Positions 37,782 to 45,940 of a stretch of 62,981 bases of DNA are shown piece by piece. The translations under genes and the position numbers were made by a program. Source of the stretch: Pseudomonadota bacterium (GTDB taxonomy: Bacteria; Pseudomonadota; Gammaproteobacteria; Xanthomonadales; Xanthomonadaceae); assembly GCA_030528565.1 (NCBI GenBank), contig JAUMYP010000003.1, positions 1-62,981 of the forward strand, read 5' to 3'. The stretch's first letter is position 1. Each line of letters starts with the position of its first letter. Under the pieces are notes generated by a model, which saw only the letters and a program-made list of their open reading frames with translations, ran no database searches and was not told the DNA's origin.

Positions 37782-37814
37782 AAAAATTGGGCGGTATTGC
37801 ACCGCCCAATTTTT
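37782..37814. terminator. bidirectional terminator between phaR and argH
   Basis: AAAAATTGGGCGGT (37782-37795), loop ATTGC, ACCGCCCAATTTTT (37801-37814): perfect 14-bp arms with T-runs on both strands. Its right edge overlaps the argH stop codon (37813-37815). Confidence 0.93.
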
Positions 37815-39099
37815 ATTCCCCCTGCCAACGCTGTCGCAAAAGCCCAAGCTGCATGTCGGCAGCGCCCCCTGGCGAAACCCGTGCGGCCAGGCTTTGCTGC
37901 GGGTCGCCCGCTGCCCAGCGTTCGGGTTTGGCCGCTTCGCGGTAGGCGTCGCGGAACGGCATGCCCTGGCAGGCGAGCGTCACGGCAAGGTCGGTGGCGT
38001 ACATTGAAGGCTCCAGTGCAGCGGTGAGGTTGTCCTGCCGCCATTGCAGCGCCCGCATCAGCGCGGGCAGCAAATCAAGCGCCGCCATGCCGCGGGCAAA
38101 GCCGTGCAGCAGTGCGCCCTTGCCCGGCTGCAAATCGCGGTGATAGCCCGAGGGCAGCGACAGCAATTGCTCGATTTCGGTCTTGGCTGCGGCCACGCTG
38201 GCATAGCTGGCGCGCATGAGTTCAATCACGTCCGGGTTGCGCTTGTTGGGCATGATGGAGCTGCCGGTGGTGTATTCGGAAGGCAGGCGCACAAAGCCAA
38301 ATTCGCTGCTGGTAAACAGGCTCAAATCCCAGGCGATGCGGCGCAGGTCAAGCATGGCGCTGCCGAGCGCCTCCAGCGCGGCCAGCTCGTATTTGCCGCG
38401 CGAAAGCTGGGCGTACAGGGGCGAGACCTGCATCCTGGCAAAACCGAGTGCCTCAGTGGTATGAGCACGGTCAAGCGCCAGATTCACGCCGTAACCCGCC
38501 GCCGTACCCAGCGGATTGCTGTCGATGAGCGCCCGTGTGGCGCGGGCGCGCTCGCGGTTGTCGATAAAGGCTTCCGCCCAGCCGGCCCACCACATGCCAG
38601 TGGAGGACACCACCGCGCGCTGCAAATGGGTATAGCCCGGCATCGGCTGCCGGGCTTCGGCCTCGGCGCGCGCCAGCGCAATCCCGGCAATCTCGTGACA
38701 GCGCCTGGCAAGCGCATCCAGTTGCGCCTTCAGCCATAAGCGGGTGGCGACCAGCACCTGGTCATTGCGGCTACGCCCGGTATGGATTTTCTTGCCGGTA
38801 TCGCCAAGGCGCTCGGTCAGGCGCGCCTCGATGGCCGAGTGCATGTCCTCAAAGCGCGCATCCAGCACAAAGTCGCCGCGTTTGAAGTCTTCGGCCAGCG
38901 CGGCCAGCTCGCGTTGCAGGGCGGCGAGTTCTTCTGCACTCAGGATGCCGATGCGCTGCAAGCCTTCGGCATGAATGCGGCTGGCTTCAATGTCAAACAG
39001 CATGAATTCGCGGTCGAGGATGACATCTTCTCCGGCCAAAAAGCGCTGGATATCGGTATCGACGGCGATGCCCTGTTTTTGCCACAACAGATTGCTCAT
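37813..39099 (-). CDS. argH: argininosuccinate lyase
   Basis: 428 residues. Splits argininosuccinate into arginine and fumarate. Superfamily signature [17 protein letters not shown], with [10 protein letters not shown] and [16 protein letters not shown]. Slightly shorter than the 455-470 of E. coli-type ArgH, as in Xanthomonas. Last gene of the arg operon; ATGA overlap with argC. Confidence 0.96.
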
Positions 39100-40064
39100 G
39101 AACGCAACTCACTGGAACTGGAAGGAAAAATACCGGCCAGCTCGTCAAAGCCGAAGGCCAGGTTCAGATTTTGCATCGCCTGGGTGGCCGCGCCTTTCAA
39201 AAGATTGTCCAGCACGCTGACCACGACCAGCCGCCTGCCGCTGGCATCTACGGCAAAGCCGCCCAGCATGGCGTAATGGCGACCGGCCACGCGGCTCACC
39301 CAGGGAGCATCCGCGCTGACTGCCAGCAGCGGCTCGCCAGCATAGAACTCGCGTGTGTGCTGCAAGGCCGCTTCTGCGCTGATGGATGCTTTCAGATGCA
39401 GGTTGGCGGTAATGGTGAGGCCGCGAAAATGCGGCGCCACATGCGGCATGAATTCCACCGCTGCGGTATGGCGAGTGACTTCGCGCGCGTGCAGATGCCC
39501 GGTCAGCGCATAGGGCATCAGGTTGTCGCGCAGAAGCTCCGGGTTGTTCTTGTCACTGGGCGTAGTGCCCGCGCCGGAATAGCCGGAAACGCCAAAGCAC
39601 TGCACGGGTGCAGCCAGCTCCGCCTTGAACGGCGCGATGGCCAGCTGCATCGCCGTGGCATAGCAGCCGGGGTTGCTGATGCGGCGCTGCCCCCTGTAAT
39701 GCTGGCGGGTCAGCTCCGGCAGACCGTAATACCAGGCATCGTCAAAGCGGTAATCGGCGGACAAATCGACAATCACCGTATCCGGATTGCCCGCCTCAAT
39801 CGCCGCTACATAGTCGGCGCTCTTGCCGTTGGGCAGCGCCAACACAACGGCATCGGCACGGCGCCTGGCCAGCGCCGCAGCATCCAGATTTTCATAGCAG
39901 AGCGCGCCCTGATAGGCTGGATTGTGTGCGGCCAGCGTTTGCCCGGCCAGCTCGCGCGAGGAGACGAATGCCAACTCGAATTGCGGGTGTGTTGCGAGCA
40001 GACGAATCAATTCCGCGCCGGTATGGCCGCGTGCGCCGATGATGCCCAGGGTTTTGCTTTTCAT
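39096..40064 (-). CDS. argC: N-acetyl-gamma-glutamyl-phosphate reductase
   Basis: 322 residues. NADPH-binding start [19 protein letters not shown]; catalytic Cys in [28 protein letters not shown] follows. Reduces N-acetylglutamyl phosphate to the semialdehyde. Start at 40064 ([13 protein letters not shown]) 16 nt after the small membrane-protein gene. Confidence 0.96.
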
Positions 40065-40080
40065 GGTGTCCTCATGTCGT

Positions 40081-40578
40081 TCATTGCTGCAAAGACGAAC
40101 ACTGCGCATGTACTTCCGGGCTTAGCAACTCGCCAAACAGTACTGCCCAGGTCATATAGCCGGTGAGCGCCAGCAACACCGGCACCACCAGTATCAGCAG
40201 CAGGCGGCCGCGCCATAGCGCATAGGTTTTGCTGCGAATCGGCGTGTCTTTCCACAGCCACATGCCCGGCCACGGCCATTGCCGGTATTGCAGGCAGCGC
40301 AGGCCATCGACTGCTGCGAAAAACAGCATGGCCAGCGGAAAAATAAGCAGCGGCAAGAGCAGGATGCGAAAGCGCAGGATGCCGGTGCAGGCGTCCGTGG
40401 CGGCCTTCACCCATTCAACGCCCCTGGGCATCGCTACATATATCCAAAGCAGCATGAAGGTCACGCAGGCCAACAACAACACGCCTTGAGTGATGCGGCT
40501 GACATTGCGCGGCGCGATGCTTGCGACGTCAGCGGGCGGCGTTTCCGGGCTGATGCGGAACCCGTCCTTGCTGCTCAT
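40081..40578 (-). CDS. small membrane protein inside the arg operon
   Basis: 165 residues with three clear membrane helices (about 31-50, 70-92 and 126-148) and a polar N-terminus. Trp/Pro-rich loop [15 protein letters not shown]. No motif I recognise. It lies between argB (1-nt gap) and argC (16 nt) on the same strand, so it must be co-transcribed with arginine genes. A role in arginine transport or an unrelated passenger are both open. Confidence 0.7.
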
Positions 40579-40579
40579 G

Positions 40580-41914
40580 TCAGGCTCCCTGGTCGCTCAA
40601 GGTGGCCGGGCGGCTGCGGCATTCCAGCACGCAGCGTTCAATCTGCGCAAAATCATCCAGGCCGTACCAGAACACCGTCCACTCGCCCTGCTTGCTGCTG
40701 CCATCGGCCTCGTCAAAGTAGAAACTGTTGACCGGATTCTGCCTGCGCGAGCGCCAGTACAGCACCGGGGTTTGCGCGCGCATTTGCGCCCATAGCGCCC
40801 GCCCCAGCCCCTCGCCCTGGGCTTCGTCGAGCACCGCGAACTTGTCCAGATACAGGCCCTGCTCGGTGCGCAGCACAATCACTGCGGCGCGGTAGTTTTC
40901 GCTGACCCAGGCGCGCGCCAGTGCGCTGCGCCCGAAGTAATCAGCCGCCAGCTTGCGCCCGAAGGCCGATTCAATCAGCCCGCGCAGGCGCACAAGGTCG
41001 AACGCCTGCCAGTTATCCGCGCACAGCACGCGCTCGCCACGCCGCACCAGGGTGCCCGAACCTTTGTGGGTAAACAGTTCCTTGGCAAGCTCGGCAGGCC
41101 GGGTAATCGACACCGAGGAGGACAGCGGCACGCTGTCCAGCAGCGCCCTGATTTGCTCAATCTTGAGCCGCATGCCGCCGTTAATCCACTCGGCCTGCAT
41201 CAGCTGCTGGTAATCGCTGGAGAGGTTGATGGAGTCAATCACCTGCCCTGCCGCATCCAAGAGGCCCCCAGTGCCGGTGAGGAACACGATTTTGTCCGGC
41301 TGCACTTCGCGCACCAGCGCATTGGCGGCAAAATCGGCATTGATATTGACAATCTGCCCCTCGCGGGTTTCGCCGAGGCTGGCAATCACCGGAATCGAGC
41401 CAGCCTTCAGGCTTGCCCGCAGCGGTGTCAAATCCACCCGGCTCACATCACCTACCAGCCCGTAGGTGGCTTCATCCTTCAAGGTGGCCTCGAACACGCC
41501 GCAAACAATCGAGGTGGCGCGGGTATCCAGCGCCTGCAAGGCTTCCACCAGCCGCAGGTTCTGCGCTTGCATCACCTGGCGGACGATGGCAAGGGTGTCG
41601 GCGCCGGTCACGCGCAGGCCATTGATGGTTTGTTTTTCGATACCGGCAGCGGCAATGGCTTCGTCCAGTTGCGGCCCGGCGCCGTGGATGACAATCGGCG
41701 TCAGCCCGACATCCTGCAAAAACGCCAGCGATGAGGTCAGCGCCTCCAGGTCATCGCGCAGCACCGCGCCGCCGACCTTGACCACCGCAAAGCGGGCGGC
41801 CTCCAGTTCGGAATAACGCTTCAGGTATTGGTTGATTTCCTTGCTGCTGCCCATGCTGGAGAGCAGCCGCAGGATGGTGAGACGGGTTTGCCGGTCGTGG
41901 ACTTCAAGGTTCAT
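40580..41914 (-). CDS. argB: bifunctional N-acetylglutamate kinase/synthase
   Basis: 444 residues, a fusion. Residues about 40-290 are an amino-acid kinase domain ([60 protein letters not shown]). Residues about 300-444 are a GNAT acetyltransferase ([50 protein letters not shown]). It thus covers the first two steps, making a separate argA unnecessary. This is the Xanthomonas-type NAGS/K, resembling vertebrate NAGS; feedback inhibition by arginine is expected on the kinase domain. Confidence 0.95.
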
Positions 41915-41917
41915 GGT

Positions 41918-43003
41918 TTAGCTGCCAGAAACAAGGCGGTGGATGGATTGGGTGTATTGCTCAAGCTGCGCCAGCGCCACCCACTCATCAGCCGTGTGCG
42001 CCTGGGCGATGTCACCGGGGCCATAGACGATGGCGGTCAGGCCAGCGGCGGAAAACAGCGCGGCTTCCGTCCAGAAGTCCACCGCATCGCCTGGCGGCAA
42101 GCCCAAAGACGCGGCCAGATGCTCGGCCTCGCGGCGGCGGCTTTCGGCCTGCGCGGCATCACCTGCGGGCAGCGACGGGCCACGGAAGGTTTCCTCATAA
42201 TCCGTACCCGGCTCGGCAAAGGCCAGGAACTGCTGGTGCAACTCGTCCATGTCTTGCGAGGGCAATGGCCGGAAGCCAAAACGCACTTCGGCCTCGGGCG
42301 CGATGACATTGGCCTTGATGCCGCCCTCCACCCGGCCAATATTGAAGCGCAGCCCCTGCAAGCCGCCGAAGGCCTGCGCCGCATGTGCGTCCACATGCGC
42401 AAGCGCGCGTGCGCCCCAGCGCATCGCCTGATGCAGGGCGCTGGCCTGCATCGCCTGCGCGCCCGAGGCATGCCCTGCCCTGCCGTGAAACTGCATCCGC
42501 ACCGCACTGATGCCGCGATGCGCCAGCACTGCACGGCAGCCGGTCGGCTCGGCCACAATCACGTTCTGGAAGCCATGATTGCTGGCCAGAAAATGCGCGA
42601 TGCAGCGCGGGTCATTGGCTTCCTCGTCATTGGAAAACAGCATCGCCATATCGCCGCTTGTCGCCTGCGCCACGGCCAGCAGCCCGGCAGCCGCCCCCTT
42701 GATATCACAGGCGCCAAGGCCAATCGCGCGTCCGCCCTCCACCCGCAAAATATGCGGGTCGGCGCTCCAGGCGGGCGAGGCTGGCACGGTATCCAGATGC
42801 ACATTGAACAGCAGCGATGGCTGGCCGCGCACCGCCAGCAGCGACACTGCCCCGGCACCGTGGTCGGTGATTTGAATATCAAACCCCGGCAACTGCGCGC
42901 GCAAATAGGCAAACATCGGACTGTCGACCGACATCGCCCGCGGCGGATTGCGGCTATCAAAGGCCACCAGCGCGGCCAGATGTTTCAGCACCGCATCCAA
43001 CAT
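41918..43003 (-). CDS. argE: N-acetylcitrulline deacetylase (M20 family)
   Basis: 361 residues. M20 metallodeacetylase with NVHLDTVPAS, LGACDIKGAAAGLL, SNDEEANDP and HGRAGHASGAQ providing zinc ligands and dimer-domain contacts. In this operon, with acetylornithine carbamoyltransferase next door, the substrate should be N-acetyl-L-citrulline. Sequence alone cannot exclude acetylornithine. Start at 43003 overlaps the argG stop by one base (TAATG). Confidence 0.92.
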   Translation of the reverse strand: MLDAVLKHLAALVAFDSRNPPRAMSVDSPMFAYLRAQLPGFDIQITDHGAGAVSLLAVRGQPSLLFNVHLDTVPASPAWSADPHILRVEGGRAIGLGACDIKGAAAGLLAVAQATSGDMAMLFSNDEEANDPRCIAHFLASNHGFQNVIVAEPTGCRAVLAHRGISAVRMQFHGRAGHASGAQAMQASALHQAMRWGARALAHVDAHAAQAFGGLQGLRFNIGRVEGGIKANVIAPEAEVRFGFRPLPSQDMDELHQQFLAFAEPGTDYEETFRGPSLPAGDAAQAESRRREAEHLAASLGLPPGDAVDFWTEAALFSAAGLTAIVYGPGDIAQAHTADEWVALAQLEQYTQSIHRLVSGS

Positions 43004-44250
43004 TATTTTGCTCCGTTGACTTCCGCCCACAGCGTGCTGCTCATGCCAAACAGTTTGATGAAGCCCTCGGCCTCGGCCACGCCCCAGTCGGCTGACTGCG
43101 CATAGGTCGCGCCCTTGGCGCTCAACACATGCGGCGACTCAACGGCCACCGCATCCACGCGTCCGCCGTGGGTTTCCAGCAGCACTTCGCCATTGACTCT
43201 GCGCTGGCTGGACTGCAAGAACGCTTCCAGGTCGGTTTTCAGCGGGTCATGCCAGAAGCCCTCGTACACCAGCTCCACCCACTTGCGGGCGACTTCCGGC
43301 TTGAAGCGGTTTTGCTGCTTGGAAAGCACAGCTTCTTCCAGCGCCCGGTGCGCGGCGAGCAAGGCCGCCAGCCCCGGCGCTTCATAGACGATGCGCCCCT
43401 TGAGGCCGATGGTGGTATCGCCGGTATACAGACCGCGCCCCACGCCATAGGCGGCAAACAGGGCATTGAGCCGCGCCAGCAGCTGCGGCCCCGGCAGTGC
43501 CTCGCCATCCAGCGCCACCGCCTCGCCTTCGACAAAACGGATACGCACCCGCAGCGGCGCTTCCGGCCATTCGGCGCGCGGCTTGCACCAGCCACGAGCT
43601 TCTTCGCCCGGCGCCTGCCATTGGTCGATTTCGCCGCCGGAAAGCGTCACTCCCAACAGGTTCTCGTTGATGGTGTATTGCTGCTGCTTGGCGCGCACGG
43701 CAAAGCCGCGCTCCTCCAGATATTTCTGCTCGTAGGCGCGGGTCTGGGTGTGCTCTTTCTGGATTTCGCGGATGGGGGCAACGATGTGGTAATCGCCGCT
43801 GGCCTTCACCGCCAAATCAAAACGCACCTGGTCATTGCCCATGCCGGTGCAGCCGTGGGCAATGGCGCGCGTGCCGAGCTCACGGGCGCGCGCCAGCGCG
43901 GCATCGACAATCAGATAACGGTCGGACACCAGCAGCGGATACTGCCCCTGATAACCCTCACCCGCCCAGACGAAGGGTTTGACAAAGCCCGCCCAAATCG
44001 CAGGTCCCCCATCAATGGTGCGATGGCTGGCCGCGCCTAGCTCCGCCGCACGCTGCTCGATATAAGCGCGCTCCCCGGCATCCACCCCGCCGGTATCGGC
44101 AAACACGGTATGCACCTGCCAGCCCTGCTCACGCAGATAGGGGATGCAGAAACTGGTATCCAGCCCGCCGGAAAAAGCGAGCACGATGGTTTTTCCATCG
44201 GCACGTACGGCTTGGGATTGGGTAGCAGGCGAATAACTGGGCGATGACAT
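43003..44250 (-). CDS. argG: argininosuccinate synthase
   Basis: 415 residues. ATP-pyrophosphatase loop [35 protein letters not shown] and [15 protein letters not shown]. Joins citrulline and aspartate to argininosuccinate. Start at 44250, with AAGGAG 6 nt upstream; the longer frame to 44307 is not supported. Sixty-three nt separate it from argF'. Confidence 0.96.
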
Positions 44251-44313: not shown

Positions 44314-45342
44314 CTACGAGTCCCGAGTCCCGAGTCCCGAGTCCCGCAGCAATGCCGCCATCACCGCCTTCTGCACATGCAGGCGGTTTTCGGCCTCGTT
44401 GATGGCGATGCATTGCGGTGAGTCCATCACCGCATCGGTGGCCTTGACATTGCGGCGCAGTGGCAGGCAATGACTGAATACGCCGTTATTGGTCAGCGCC
44501 ATCTTGGCCTCATCGACGATGAAATGCCGGTGCGCATCGCGGATGGGTTTTTCCCTTTCCCACTGGCCAAAATACGGCAGCGCCCCCCAGCTCTTGGCAT
44601 ACACCACATCGGCACCGGCATAGGCGTTTTCAATGTCATGGCTGATGACAAGGCTGCCGCCGGACTCGGCCACATTCTGCGCCGCCCACTGCATATAGCG
44701 TTCATCCAGCAGGTAATCCTCGTTCGGGCACAGCAAGGTCACCTCCATCCCTAAGCGCGTGGCGATGGTCAGCGCCGAGTTCGCCACCGCAGTGTTCAGC
44801 GCCTTGGGATGATAAGTCCAGGTCAGCACGTATTTTTTACCGCGCAGGTCGCGGCTACCGAAGTGCTCCTGTAAGGCCAGCGCATGCGCCAGCTCCTGAC
44901 AGGGATGGGTAATGGTTTCCATATTGATGACCGGCACCGTGGAATAGCGGGCAAACGCCGCCAGCACCTTGTCCTGGCGGTCCTCCTGCCAGTCGATGAA
45001 CTTCGGGAAGGCGCGCACGGCAATCAGGTCCACATAGCGCGAGAGCACCCGGGCGACTTCGGCGATATGCTCCTCAGTCTCGCCCGCCATCACCGTGCCA
45101 AACTCAAACTCCACCGGCCAGGCATCCTTGCCCGGTTGCAGCACGATGGCATGCCCGCCCAGCTGGAATGCGCCCAGCTCGAAACTGGTGCGGGTACGCA
45201 TCGACGGATTGAAAAACAAGAGTGCAATCGAGCGCCCTTTCAGCGCATCGCCCCATTTGTGCTGCTTCATGCGCGCAGCCTCGGCCAATAGCGCATCCAG
45301 TTCGGCGCGGCTCCAGTCTTGCGTGTTCAAAAAATGTTTCAT
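44314..45342 (-). CDS. argF': N-acetylornithine carbamoyltransferase
   Basis: 342 residues. Transfers carbamoyl to N-acetylornithine, giving acetylcitrulline. It follows the Xanthomonas AOTCase closely: MKHFLNTQDWSRAELDALL, FFNPSMRTRTSFELGAFQLG, QPGKDAWPVEFEFGTVMAG, NMETITHPCQELAHALALQE and HCLPLRRNVKATD. Ordinary ornithine carbamoyltransferases lack the PGKDAWP stretch. The last residues (RDSGLGTRDS) are encoded by a 7-nt tandem repeat. First gene of the operon, behind the attenuator-like leader. Confidence 0.96.
   Translation of the reverse strand: MKHFLNTQDWSRAELDALLAEAARMKQHKWGDALKGRSIALLFFNPSMRTRTSFELGAFQLGGHAIVLQPGKDAWPVEFEFGTVMAGETEEHIAEVARVLSRYVDLIAVRAFPKFIDWQEDRQDKVLAAFARYSTVPVINMETITHPCQELAHALALQEHFGSRDLRGKKYVLTWTYHPKALNTAVANSALTIATRLGMEVTLLCPNEDYLLDERYMQWAAQNVAESGGSLVISHDIENAYAGADVVYAKSWGALPYFGQWEREKPIRDAHRHFIVDEAKMALTNNGVFSHCLPLRRNVKATDAVMDSPQCIAINEAENRLHVQKAVMAALLRDSGLGTRDS
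44318..44345. repeat. heptamer tandem repeat (GAGTCCC x4) at the argF' 3' end
   Basis: Four perfect GAGTCCC units immediately before the argF' stop (44316-44314). Because 7 is not a multiple of 3, each unit gained or lost shifts the frame and changes the C-terminus. Confidence 0.9.
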
Positions 45343-45366
45343 GGTGTTTTTCCGAAGGCAAAAAAC

Positions 45367-45391
45367 AAAAAACCCGGCACAAGGCCGGGCT
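45367..45391 (-). terminator. intrinsic terminator in the arg leader (attenuator)
   Basis: On the minus strand AGCCCGGC, loop CTTGT, GCCGGGTT and then TTTT, G, TTTTT: an 8-bp stem with one G-U pair and a long U-tract. It lies 24 nt upstream of the argF' ATG and 23 nt after the leader-peptide stop, so it must work inside the transcript of the operon, not at its end. CCGGCCT of its 5' arm (45388-45382) can instead pair with AGGCCGG (45426-45420) in the leader peptide gene. Confidence 0.82.
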
Positions 45392-45414
45392 GGAAAATCT
45401 GCATGCACGCAGTC

Positions 45415-45459
45415 TCACGCCGGCCTGTCAAAGCAGCGGCGGCGTGCACGCGAGGTCAT
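45415..45459 (-). CDS. arginine-rich leader peptide of the arg operon
   Basis: A 14-codon frame, MTSRARRRCFDRPA. Five of 14 residues are Arg, four of them in codons 4-8 (CGT GCA CGC CGC CGC). It ends TGA 23 nt before the leader terminator. The length, clustered codons for the pathway's end product and position ahead of alternative hairpins copy the his/trp/thr leader design. The Shine-Dalgarno is weak (GCGGGC). Translation is inferred; nothing but the sequence supports it. Confidence 0.65.
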   Translation of the reverse strand: MTSRARRRCFDRPA

Positions 45460-45559
45460 GCCCGCAGCCTGCCAGGCAGCGGACTGATAAGCGGCAGTGG
45501 AAAAGCATGCATTCATGGGCGGCTATGCTCGCATGCGCTTTGCAATTGGACAAGGGGCA

Positions 45560-45940
45560 CTACGGCCGGACTTCCGCACTCACCACCGGGGTGATACCGA
45601 TACGGATGCGCAGCCTGCGCCCGGGATTTTGCGCAATCCGCGAGCGATACTTCACGCCGCGATAGGTGTAATCCACGTCATAGGCAATCGGGCGGCGGTA
45701 CTCCAGCGGCACTCGCACCTCACGGCATTCACGCACCGCACTGCCCGGCAGTGGACGGCACTGCTCTCTTGCGGTGCTGGCGTTCAGCACCTGATAGACC
45801 GGCTGCACGCTCAATACCTGCGCATAGTCATAGCGTACCTGCTCGGCAGGCACCAGCCGCTCCTGTGCTGCAAGTGCAGCAGGCACAAGCATTACAGCAA
45901 GCAATAACCAGGTTTGCAGCAGGGGATGACGACAGAACAC
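45560..45940 (-). CDS. exported hypothetical protein (126 aa)
   Basis: Signal peptide of about 25 residues (LLQTWLLLAVMLVPAALAA). The mature part has RYDYAQVLSVQPVYQVLNAS, REQCRPLPGSAVRECREVRVP and YDVDYTYRGVKYRSRIAQNPGRRLRIRIGITP. Two Cys may form a disulphide. The YDYAQVL...V.P.Y and YDVxYxYRG...R.A..PG.R...R motifs occur in proteobacterial envelope proteins that normally carry a glycine-zipper segment, which is absent here. It ends 100 nt upstream of the arg leader peptide. Confidence 0.75.
   Translation of the reverse strand: MFCRHPLLQTWLLLAVMLVPAALAAQERLVPAEQVRYDYAQVLSVQPVYQVLNASTAREQCRPLPGSAVRECREVRVPLEYRRPIAYDVDYTYRGVKYRSRIAQNPGRRLRIRIGITPVVSAEVRP

Follow-up and report, generated by a model that had tools for sequence, protein, structure and literature searches.

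The acetylcitrulline-type arginine operon found in the window (the whole stretch of 62,981 nucleotides that was analysed) is, with high probability, set by the supply of charged tRNA-Arg through a ribosome-mediated transcription attenuator, a reading that rests on sequence comparison. Repression by ArgR is the textbook view of arginine synthesis in bacteria, and this leader would probably let the ribosome gauge arginine directly where the arginine repressor is absent. The initial annotation of this DNA had proposed attenuation of the his/trp style for arginine, and comparison with relatives supports the proposal through the reading frame, the terminator, the pairing and the Arg-codon clusters of deeper families; the codons of the frame, its pairing potential and the lack of an ArgR match are likewise apparent from such comparison.

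Organisation of the locus

The first gene of the operon is argF' (N-acetylornithine carbamoyltransferase; 44314..45342, minus strand), which scored 615 bits against NCBIfam NF003384 (cut-off 288). It is followed (37813..44250, minus strand) by argG, an argE-type deacetylase gene, an acetylglutamate kinase gene of the fused argA/B type (assignment from PMC1865377), a small ORF with no family, argC and argH. The genes from argF' to argH are on the same strand and overlap or are separated by small gaps, and this tight spacing suggests that they are co-transcribed. Reading along the minus strand upstream of argF' there is a promoter-like site, then a frame of 33 codons opening at ATG 45516, then an intrinsic terminator at 45391-45365, which is 22-24 nt from the argF' ATG (45342). 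Every sequence and coordinate named in the initial annotation was found in its place, including MTSRARRRCFDRPA at 45459-45415 with four Arg codons in five, and the terminator, given as 45391-45367 and 24 nt upstream of the argF' ATG.

Directly upstream of the leader is a small gene (45560-45940, minus strand) for which no curated family scored above cut-off. By eye, relatives also seem to have a coding end like that of this gene ahead of their leader.

The leader peptide and its arginine codons

Leaders were compared across 121 Lysobacteraceae loci, made up of the window, the best 80 of 486 tblastn loci and 40 upstream regions hand-picked, mostly one per genus, among the matches listed in 198 genomes. 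All were reached via argF' and close relatives are over-represented; removal of identical stretches left 115 distinct leaders. Alignment of the leader across argF' loci of the family had been suggested as a check on the initial annotation, and it showed the Arg-rich frame to be conserved in 121/121. The window's leader peptide gene (45415..45516, minus strand; 33 codons and TGA, MNACFSTAAYQSAAWQAAGMTSRARRRCFDRPA) has a homologous frame in all of these loci, with the pattern [GS]-[MTI]-[TA]-S-R-[AT]-R and the core A-xx-A-x-GMTSRARR. The Arg-rich frame had thus been rightly recognised, but its start had been placed at 45459, and this part does not stand. The frame very probably opens at ATG 45516 and not at the internal Met, as judged from sequence, because the homologous frame runs further upstream in relatives, because the internal Met is Thr or Ile in 2/115 distinct leaders and because 103/115 have a −10 motif 4-12 nt ahead of the upstream start; the shorter peptide is the C-terminal part of the 33-codon frame.

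Among the 115 distinct leaders the ten core codons depart from the consensus by 241 synonymous and 9 nonsynonymous changes, against 43 and 607 in the N-terminal part and 17 and 247 in the tail, and therefore only the core is selected as a peptide. Five of its residues (Ala, Ala, Ser, Arg and Arg) never vary in the 115 leaders, a further Ala is kept in 114 of them, and Gly, Met, Thr and the third Arg are each kept in 113. The distance from core to stop codon differs among leaders. The leader peptides matched no family in NCBIfam or Pfam.

The regulatory Arg codons of the window are CGT GCA CGC CGC CGC (R-A-R-R-R; 45436..45450, minus strand), of which 45450-45442 is also the pairing strand for 45410-45402. 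Arg occupies the first two regulatory positions in 115/115 distinct leaders and the third in 113/115. The first is CGC or CGT in all 115 and the second in 114 (one has CGA), whereas 107 of the 113 leaders with Arg at the third position use CGA. Among the 79 distinct leaders for which argF' was available, 74 have CGA for the third Arg and 51 have CGG for an upstream Arg of the peptide, while CGA makes up 0.4% of the Arg codons of those argF' genes (first 990 nt per gene, the whole gene for the window). A single inosine tRNA reads CGU, CGC and CGA (PMC3711424). The constraint on CGA may come partly from RNA pairing of CGACCGG, codon and pairing effects not being separable here. The window's own third regulatory Arg codon (45441-45439) is CGC, unlike the usual rare CGA.

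Distribution across the order

A covariance model of the leader (R2) matched 249/299 genomes of the order at E 0.001, the strong matches listed being in families f1, f2, f3 and f12. All 28 of the strong matches that were opened, from these four families, lie upstream of an argF' homologue and have a core of the SRARR type. The best weak matches in five genomes of f4, f6, f7 and f10 (L184-L188) are also upstream of argF'; here the core peptide is gone and Arg clusters stay (TRRLRRP, IRRLRRP, PRRRRV, LRRRR and VVRRRPRPR). In two cases a weaker second match (L189 and L190) lies away from argF', and further weak matches were obtained in f11 genomes G216, G231 and G237. Within the window's own genome the arg leader is the sole strong match (9.9e-16). 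The next match there (L152, 4.2e-4) was rejected, having no obvious Arg cluster and a terminator-like hairpin at its end. A class-wide search outside the order (274 genomes, E 1e-5, strict filters) gave no credible match; two weak out-of-order matches (G553 and G566) each lie at the 3' end of another gene that has a terminator.

For the deeper families f4-f10, 20 loci with argF' identity of at least 60% and enough upstream sequence were counted. This leaves out L206 (argF' cut by the contig end), L216 (a fragment), L217 (35% identical), L220 (a second, 37% copy), four f11 loci, L218 and L219. An Arg-cluster frame ending 23-46 nt before a terminator was found in 17/20, with the terminators 17-125 nt upstream of argF' in those 17 loci, and the terminator scan found none in L193 (f5), L204 and L209 (f9). 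The Arg-cluster filter is permissive, as frames pass it without a terminator in L193, L204, L209, L213, L215, L216 and L217, and therefore the evidence in these families is the pair of frame and terminator. Arg-codon clusters are kept there while the flanking residues change, which bears out a conserved Arg-rich frame in the deeper families.

Promoter, transcript start and the Xoo5 RNA

The putative promoter (45525..45553, minus strand), recognised by conservation of its motifs, has a −35 element TTGTCC (45553-45548), a 17-nt spacer and an extended −10 element TGC-GAGCAT (45530-45525). The motif TGnGAnnAT is found 4-12 nt upstream of the leader start in 103/115 distinct leaders (at 6-10 nt in 102), as compared with 1/2300 shuffles, and TTG precedes it in all of these 103, with a spacer of 17 in 97 and of 18 in 6. 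A generic sigma-70 scan did not pick up the leader promoter of the window.

In X. oryzae the small RNA sRNA-Xoo5, located between PXO_00354 and PXO_00353 (N-acetylornithine carbamoyltransferase), was detected on Northern blots, and its 5' end was determined by RACE; its size was put at 124 nt from RACE and the clone and at about 130 and 100 nt from the Northern blots (PMC3039613). The Rfam model Xoo5 (RF02242) has the same length as the published RNA, 124, and its position 1 is inferred to be the RACE 5' end. This model matches the X. hortorum leader from position 931 (L042:931-1054), where the leader ATG follows 2 nt later at 933. On this analogy transcription would start within a few bases of the leader ATG and the leader mRNA would be nearly leaderless. 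A start mapping downstream of 45415, which had been named as evidence against the attenuator, is contradicted by the same analogy.

Scores above the gathering level of 50 bits were obtained with the Xoo5 covariance model in 8/20 sources (L034, L035, L036, L042, L050, L055, L098 and L144). The leader of the window scored 24.1 bits, below gathering, and over the whole window Rfam at the gathering level gave a tRNA alone. The search for an Rfam overlap, also suggested initially, was thus productive in part: most of the leader RNA is in RF02242, filed as an sRNA, but the window itself falls under the gathering level. The Xoo5 of RF02242 is the arg leader RNA, with a selected reading frame inside it. 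The family ends short of the terminator, and the predicted RNA to the terminator, 162-164 nt in three Xanthomonas relatives, is longer than the published sizes, a mismatch that counts against the attenuator; processing, a truncated clone or gel sizing could be the cause. The annotation of RF02242 as a non-coding 'Xanthomonadaceae sRNA Xoo5' looks wrong or incomplete.

The name is also applied to the leader RNA in PMC6337395, within a table of Rfam names, and among the matches listed only this paper and PMC3039613 were found to use Xoo5 for the argF' leader RNA. In the literature found on Xoo5, as far as its text was accessible, it is nowhere called an attenuator.

That Xoo5 is instead a trans-acting small RNA, as published, and located upstream of argF' by chance, is very unlikely in our view, although a discrete RNA of 124, about 130 or about 100 nt does exist in X. 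oryzae and is the basis of RF02242. Xoo5 contains a selected reading frame, its strands pair with the terminator adjacent to argF', and the strong matches opened genome-wide are before argF' in 28 of 28 cases. Seven sRNA deletion mutants were also reported to have no obvious phenotype, Xoo5 not necessarily being among them (PMC3039613). A role in trans on top of attenuation is possible, by analogy with rnTrpL of S. meliloti.

Terminator, antiterminator and ribosome position

The terminator (45365..45391, minus strand) has the form AGCCCGGC-CTTGT-GCCGGGTT followed by a T-run, and CCGGCCT (45388-45382) is included in its 5' arm and loop. A terminator lies between leader and argF' in 121/121 loci, using a permissive scan with no minimum score (weakest in L139). 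The window's lone terminator is not above chance against shuffles (1 found, 1.5 expected), and the signal above chance is the conservation of the leader frame and the terminator in 121/121 each. The antiterminator strand AGGCCGG (45420..45426, minus strand) is just upstream of the stop codon and can pair with the 5' arm of the terminator; both it and CCGGCCT are where the initial annotation had put them. Most relatives have GCTGGGT in its place at the leader stop codon, which pairs with ACCCAGC, the 5' arm of the terminator.

Both helices were scored on an alignment (A1) of 52 of 58 diverse rows, with L040, L048, L098, L119, L127 and L139 omitted for long spacers or tails. All 416 cells of the terminator stem (100%) are paired, with 31 double-change cells (0/500 shuffles as high; 52 rows). 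The antiterminator is paired in 94.5% of 364 cells and has 7 double-change cells (7/500 shuffles as high; 52 rows), the window row being out of register in this alignment; the count of antiterminator pairs with double changes was reached in 335/500 shuffles. Of the seven arm columns facing the antiterminator strand two are variable, both A/G and mostly opposite an antiterminator U. Own partners have a modest advantage over swapped ones (z about −3 for both helices), and 10 of 29 variant terminator arms paired more strongly with their own partner than with swapped ones on average. The initial suggestion to look for covarying stems is therefore answered by a terminator stem that covaries and an antiterminator whose pairing is kept in 94.5% of cells.

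The third helix is formed between the Arg-Pro codons and a stretch after the stop codon. In the window its strands are CGTGCACGC (45450-45442) over the Arg codons and GCGTGCATG (45402..45410, minus strand), which is 3' of the stop codon and complementary to the Arg-codon strand; both were confirmed in the positions first given for them. In relatives it is often a short CCGG:CCGG or CCGTT:AACGG; of 79 leaders with CCG-GA, 75 have the C predicted before CGG, and of 10 with CCG-TT, 7 have the predicted A. This is the weakest of the three helices, because the best ungapped helix varies by leader and 4/115 are without any of 4 pairs. The strand at 45402-45410 could enclose the antiterminator strand when the Arg codons are free of a ribosome.

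The effect of the ribosome was modelled by folding the RNA ahead of it only, for the 115 distinct leaders, with the antiterminator called at P>0.3. It was called in 115/115 when the third Arg codon occupied the A-site, and in 0/115 when the ribosome was placed on the stop codon. When RNA behind the ribosome was kept the figures were 80/115 and 2/115, respectively, and ribosome-free RNA passed in 63/115. Much of the antiterminator pairing is given by GC richness, since leaders with a shuffled tail passed in 385/575 (mean 0.41, against 0.69 unshuffled). The antiterminator is thus exclusive with the terminator and dependent on ribosome position in the main model, and more weakly so in other settings.

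The hairpin might also be a mere terminator of the upstream gene (45940-45560), with argF' having its own promoter that is unregulated or regulated by a protein. This gene shares the strand of the operon, its end is 168 nt upstream of the hairpin, and a lone terminator here is not above chance; yet the interval contains a conserved promoter motif and a leader frame under selection, the RACE start of Xoo5 falls between upstream gene and leader, the hairpin is complementary to the end of the leader, and the 17 deeper loci also have a terminator 17-125 nt before argF'. This explanation is the least probable of all those considered.

ArgR in the order

No match to ArgR (PF01316) was found in any of 60 genomes of the family, that of the window included, and the operon does not in this respect resemble one controlled by ArgR; as a control, PF01316 was positive in 9/14 known genomes. 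Across the order 8/298 genomes have a match, all in f11, and 290/298 do not. Of nine f11 genomes noted in the R2 search, one, G249, has no ArgR match; it is 77% complete and may lie outside the ArgR sample. Four f11 argF loci (38-40% identical) have no terminator and no leader-terminator pair, and no genome with both ArgR and the leader was found among those looked at for both. The presence of ArgR and absence of the leader in f11 is a possible replacement event. In several f11 genomes ArgR is encoded within about 1.5 kb of the distant argF homologue, on the same contig (L212-L215).

The absence of PF01316 leaves other regulators possible, and a repressor of another kind might act at the promoter and govern arginine control, the leader merely setting the basal level. 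This would leave the conservation of Arg codons across families unexplained, and we hold it to be even less likely than the chance placement of a trans-acting Xoo5.

Proposed mechanism

For the attenuator, which is the preferred reading, a leader frame in which end-product codons cluster is found in 121/121 leaders and in 17/20 deeper loci, and an intrinsic terminator precedes the first structural gene. From this arrangement we infer that the leader is translated, that ribosomes stall in it and that the operon responds to arginine. Transcription would start a few bases from the leader ATG, so that the ribosome would load on a nearly leaderless mRNA. With ample arginine it would pass the Arg codons, reach the stop codon and cover the antiterminator strand, allowing the terminator hairpin before argF' to form. 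When arginine is short the ribosome would stall on the Arg codons and leave free the antiterminator strand near the stop codon, which would then pair with the terminator's 5' arm ahead of synthesis of the 3' arm, and transcription would continue.

Classical attenuators do not require an invariant flanking peptide. The invariant core is therefore beyond what the classical mechanism needs, and may point to help from the nascent chain at the stall site; residues at that site are conserved as protein in the Lysobacteraceae leaders and not in the deeper families. If taken further, the core A-xx-A-x-GMTSRARR would arrest the ribosome from within the tunnel, with arginine or charged tRNA tuning the arrest, and codon starvation alone would not be the sensor. 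The ten core positions are conserved as protein despite free synonymous change. The length of the core is about the stretch from the peptidyl-transfer centre to the tunnel constriction when the third Arg is added. The orf34 of speF likewise has a conserved domain around its Arg codons (PMC6386406). Against this, the deeper families have Arg clusters and no core, and therefore the ancestral sensor looks like codons; arrest at the core at high arginine would free the antiterminator, which is the wrong sign for a biosynthetic operon; and the variable distance from core to stop codon argues against TnaC-like arrest at the stop codon. A sensor based on the nascent peptide is thus unlikely.

Somewhat more plausible, and put forward tentatively, is that in the Lysobacteraceae and in f2, f3 and f12 an ancestral Arg-codon attenuator has turned into a hybrid, in which the invariant A-xx-A-x-GMTSRARR peptide arrests or hyper-pauses the ribosome, mostly via the rare CGA, so that starvation and arrest would act as one sensor replacing ArgR in most of the order. 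The natural series from codon-only leaders to a frozen-peptide leader makes the origin of a nascent-chain sensor testable.

Comparison with known systems

An order that includes Xanthomonas, Stenotrophomonas and Lysobacter has a conserved switch, seemingly read by the ribosome, in place of ArgR. ArgR control of arg genes concerns the same pathway and the same signal, but is exerted by a protein repressor which in this order is confined to the few f11 genomes noted above. The attenuator reading would account for the orphan sRNA Xoo5, and would bring arginine into the set of amino acids whose synthesis is controlled by attenuation.

The initial annotation knew of no described arginine attenuator of this kind. 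For arginine biosynthesis this agrees with our literature search, in which none was found, although subscription papers may differ; as a general statement it is qualified by a precedent for a leader ORF that senses Arg codons, orf34-speF (PMC6386406). The main text of a 2010 terminator survey (PMC2965389) contains neither 'arginine' nor 'argF', and a screen for sRNAs of X. campestris (PMC7694677) was not found to mention this leader. In PMC8632094 a carA motif is described, together with leader ORFs other than this one.

The attenuators of the trp and his type resemble the arg leader in having a peptide rich in end-product codons, an antiterminator and a terminator that exclude each other and a position upstream of a biosynthetic operon, and the race logic of attenuation is as set out in PMC1183508. 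The arg leader differs from them in reading Arg codons, in being nearly leaderless, in having a third Arg that is mostly the rare CGA and in a core that, in the crown families, does not vary even outside the regulatory codons. The leader of Pseudomonas carAB also encodes a peptide with possible attenuation, before a gene common to arginine and pyrimidine synthesis; there attenuation is ascribed to pyrimidines and the effect of arginine to transcription control, and it is not an arg operon (PMC4997734). The sRNA-Xoo5 of RF02242 is the same RNA in the same place before PXO_00353, but was described as a non-coding sRNA (PMC3039613).

The nearest described relative in signal is orf34-speF of Salmonella, and the nearest in form is trpL of S. 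meliloti. In orf34-speF consecutive Arg codons slow ribosomes at low arginine and the folding of the mRNA changes, as proposed here, but it governs ornithine decarboxylase and not arginine synthesis, a Shine-Dalgarno sequence is present, and control is through Rho, RNase G and masking of the RBS with no intrinsic terminator (PMC6386406). The rnTrpL/peTrpL system of S. meliloti has a leaderless attenuator ORF whose terminated leader is an sRNA, like the arg leader; it differs in responding to tryptophan and in that functions in trans have been demonstrated in S. meliloti (PMC7298713).
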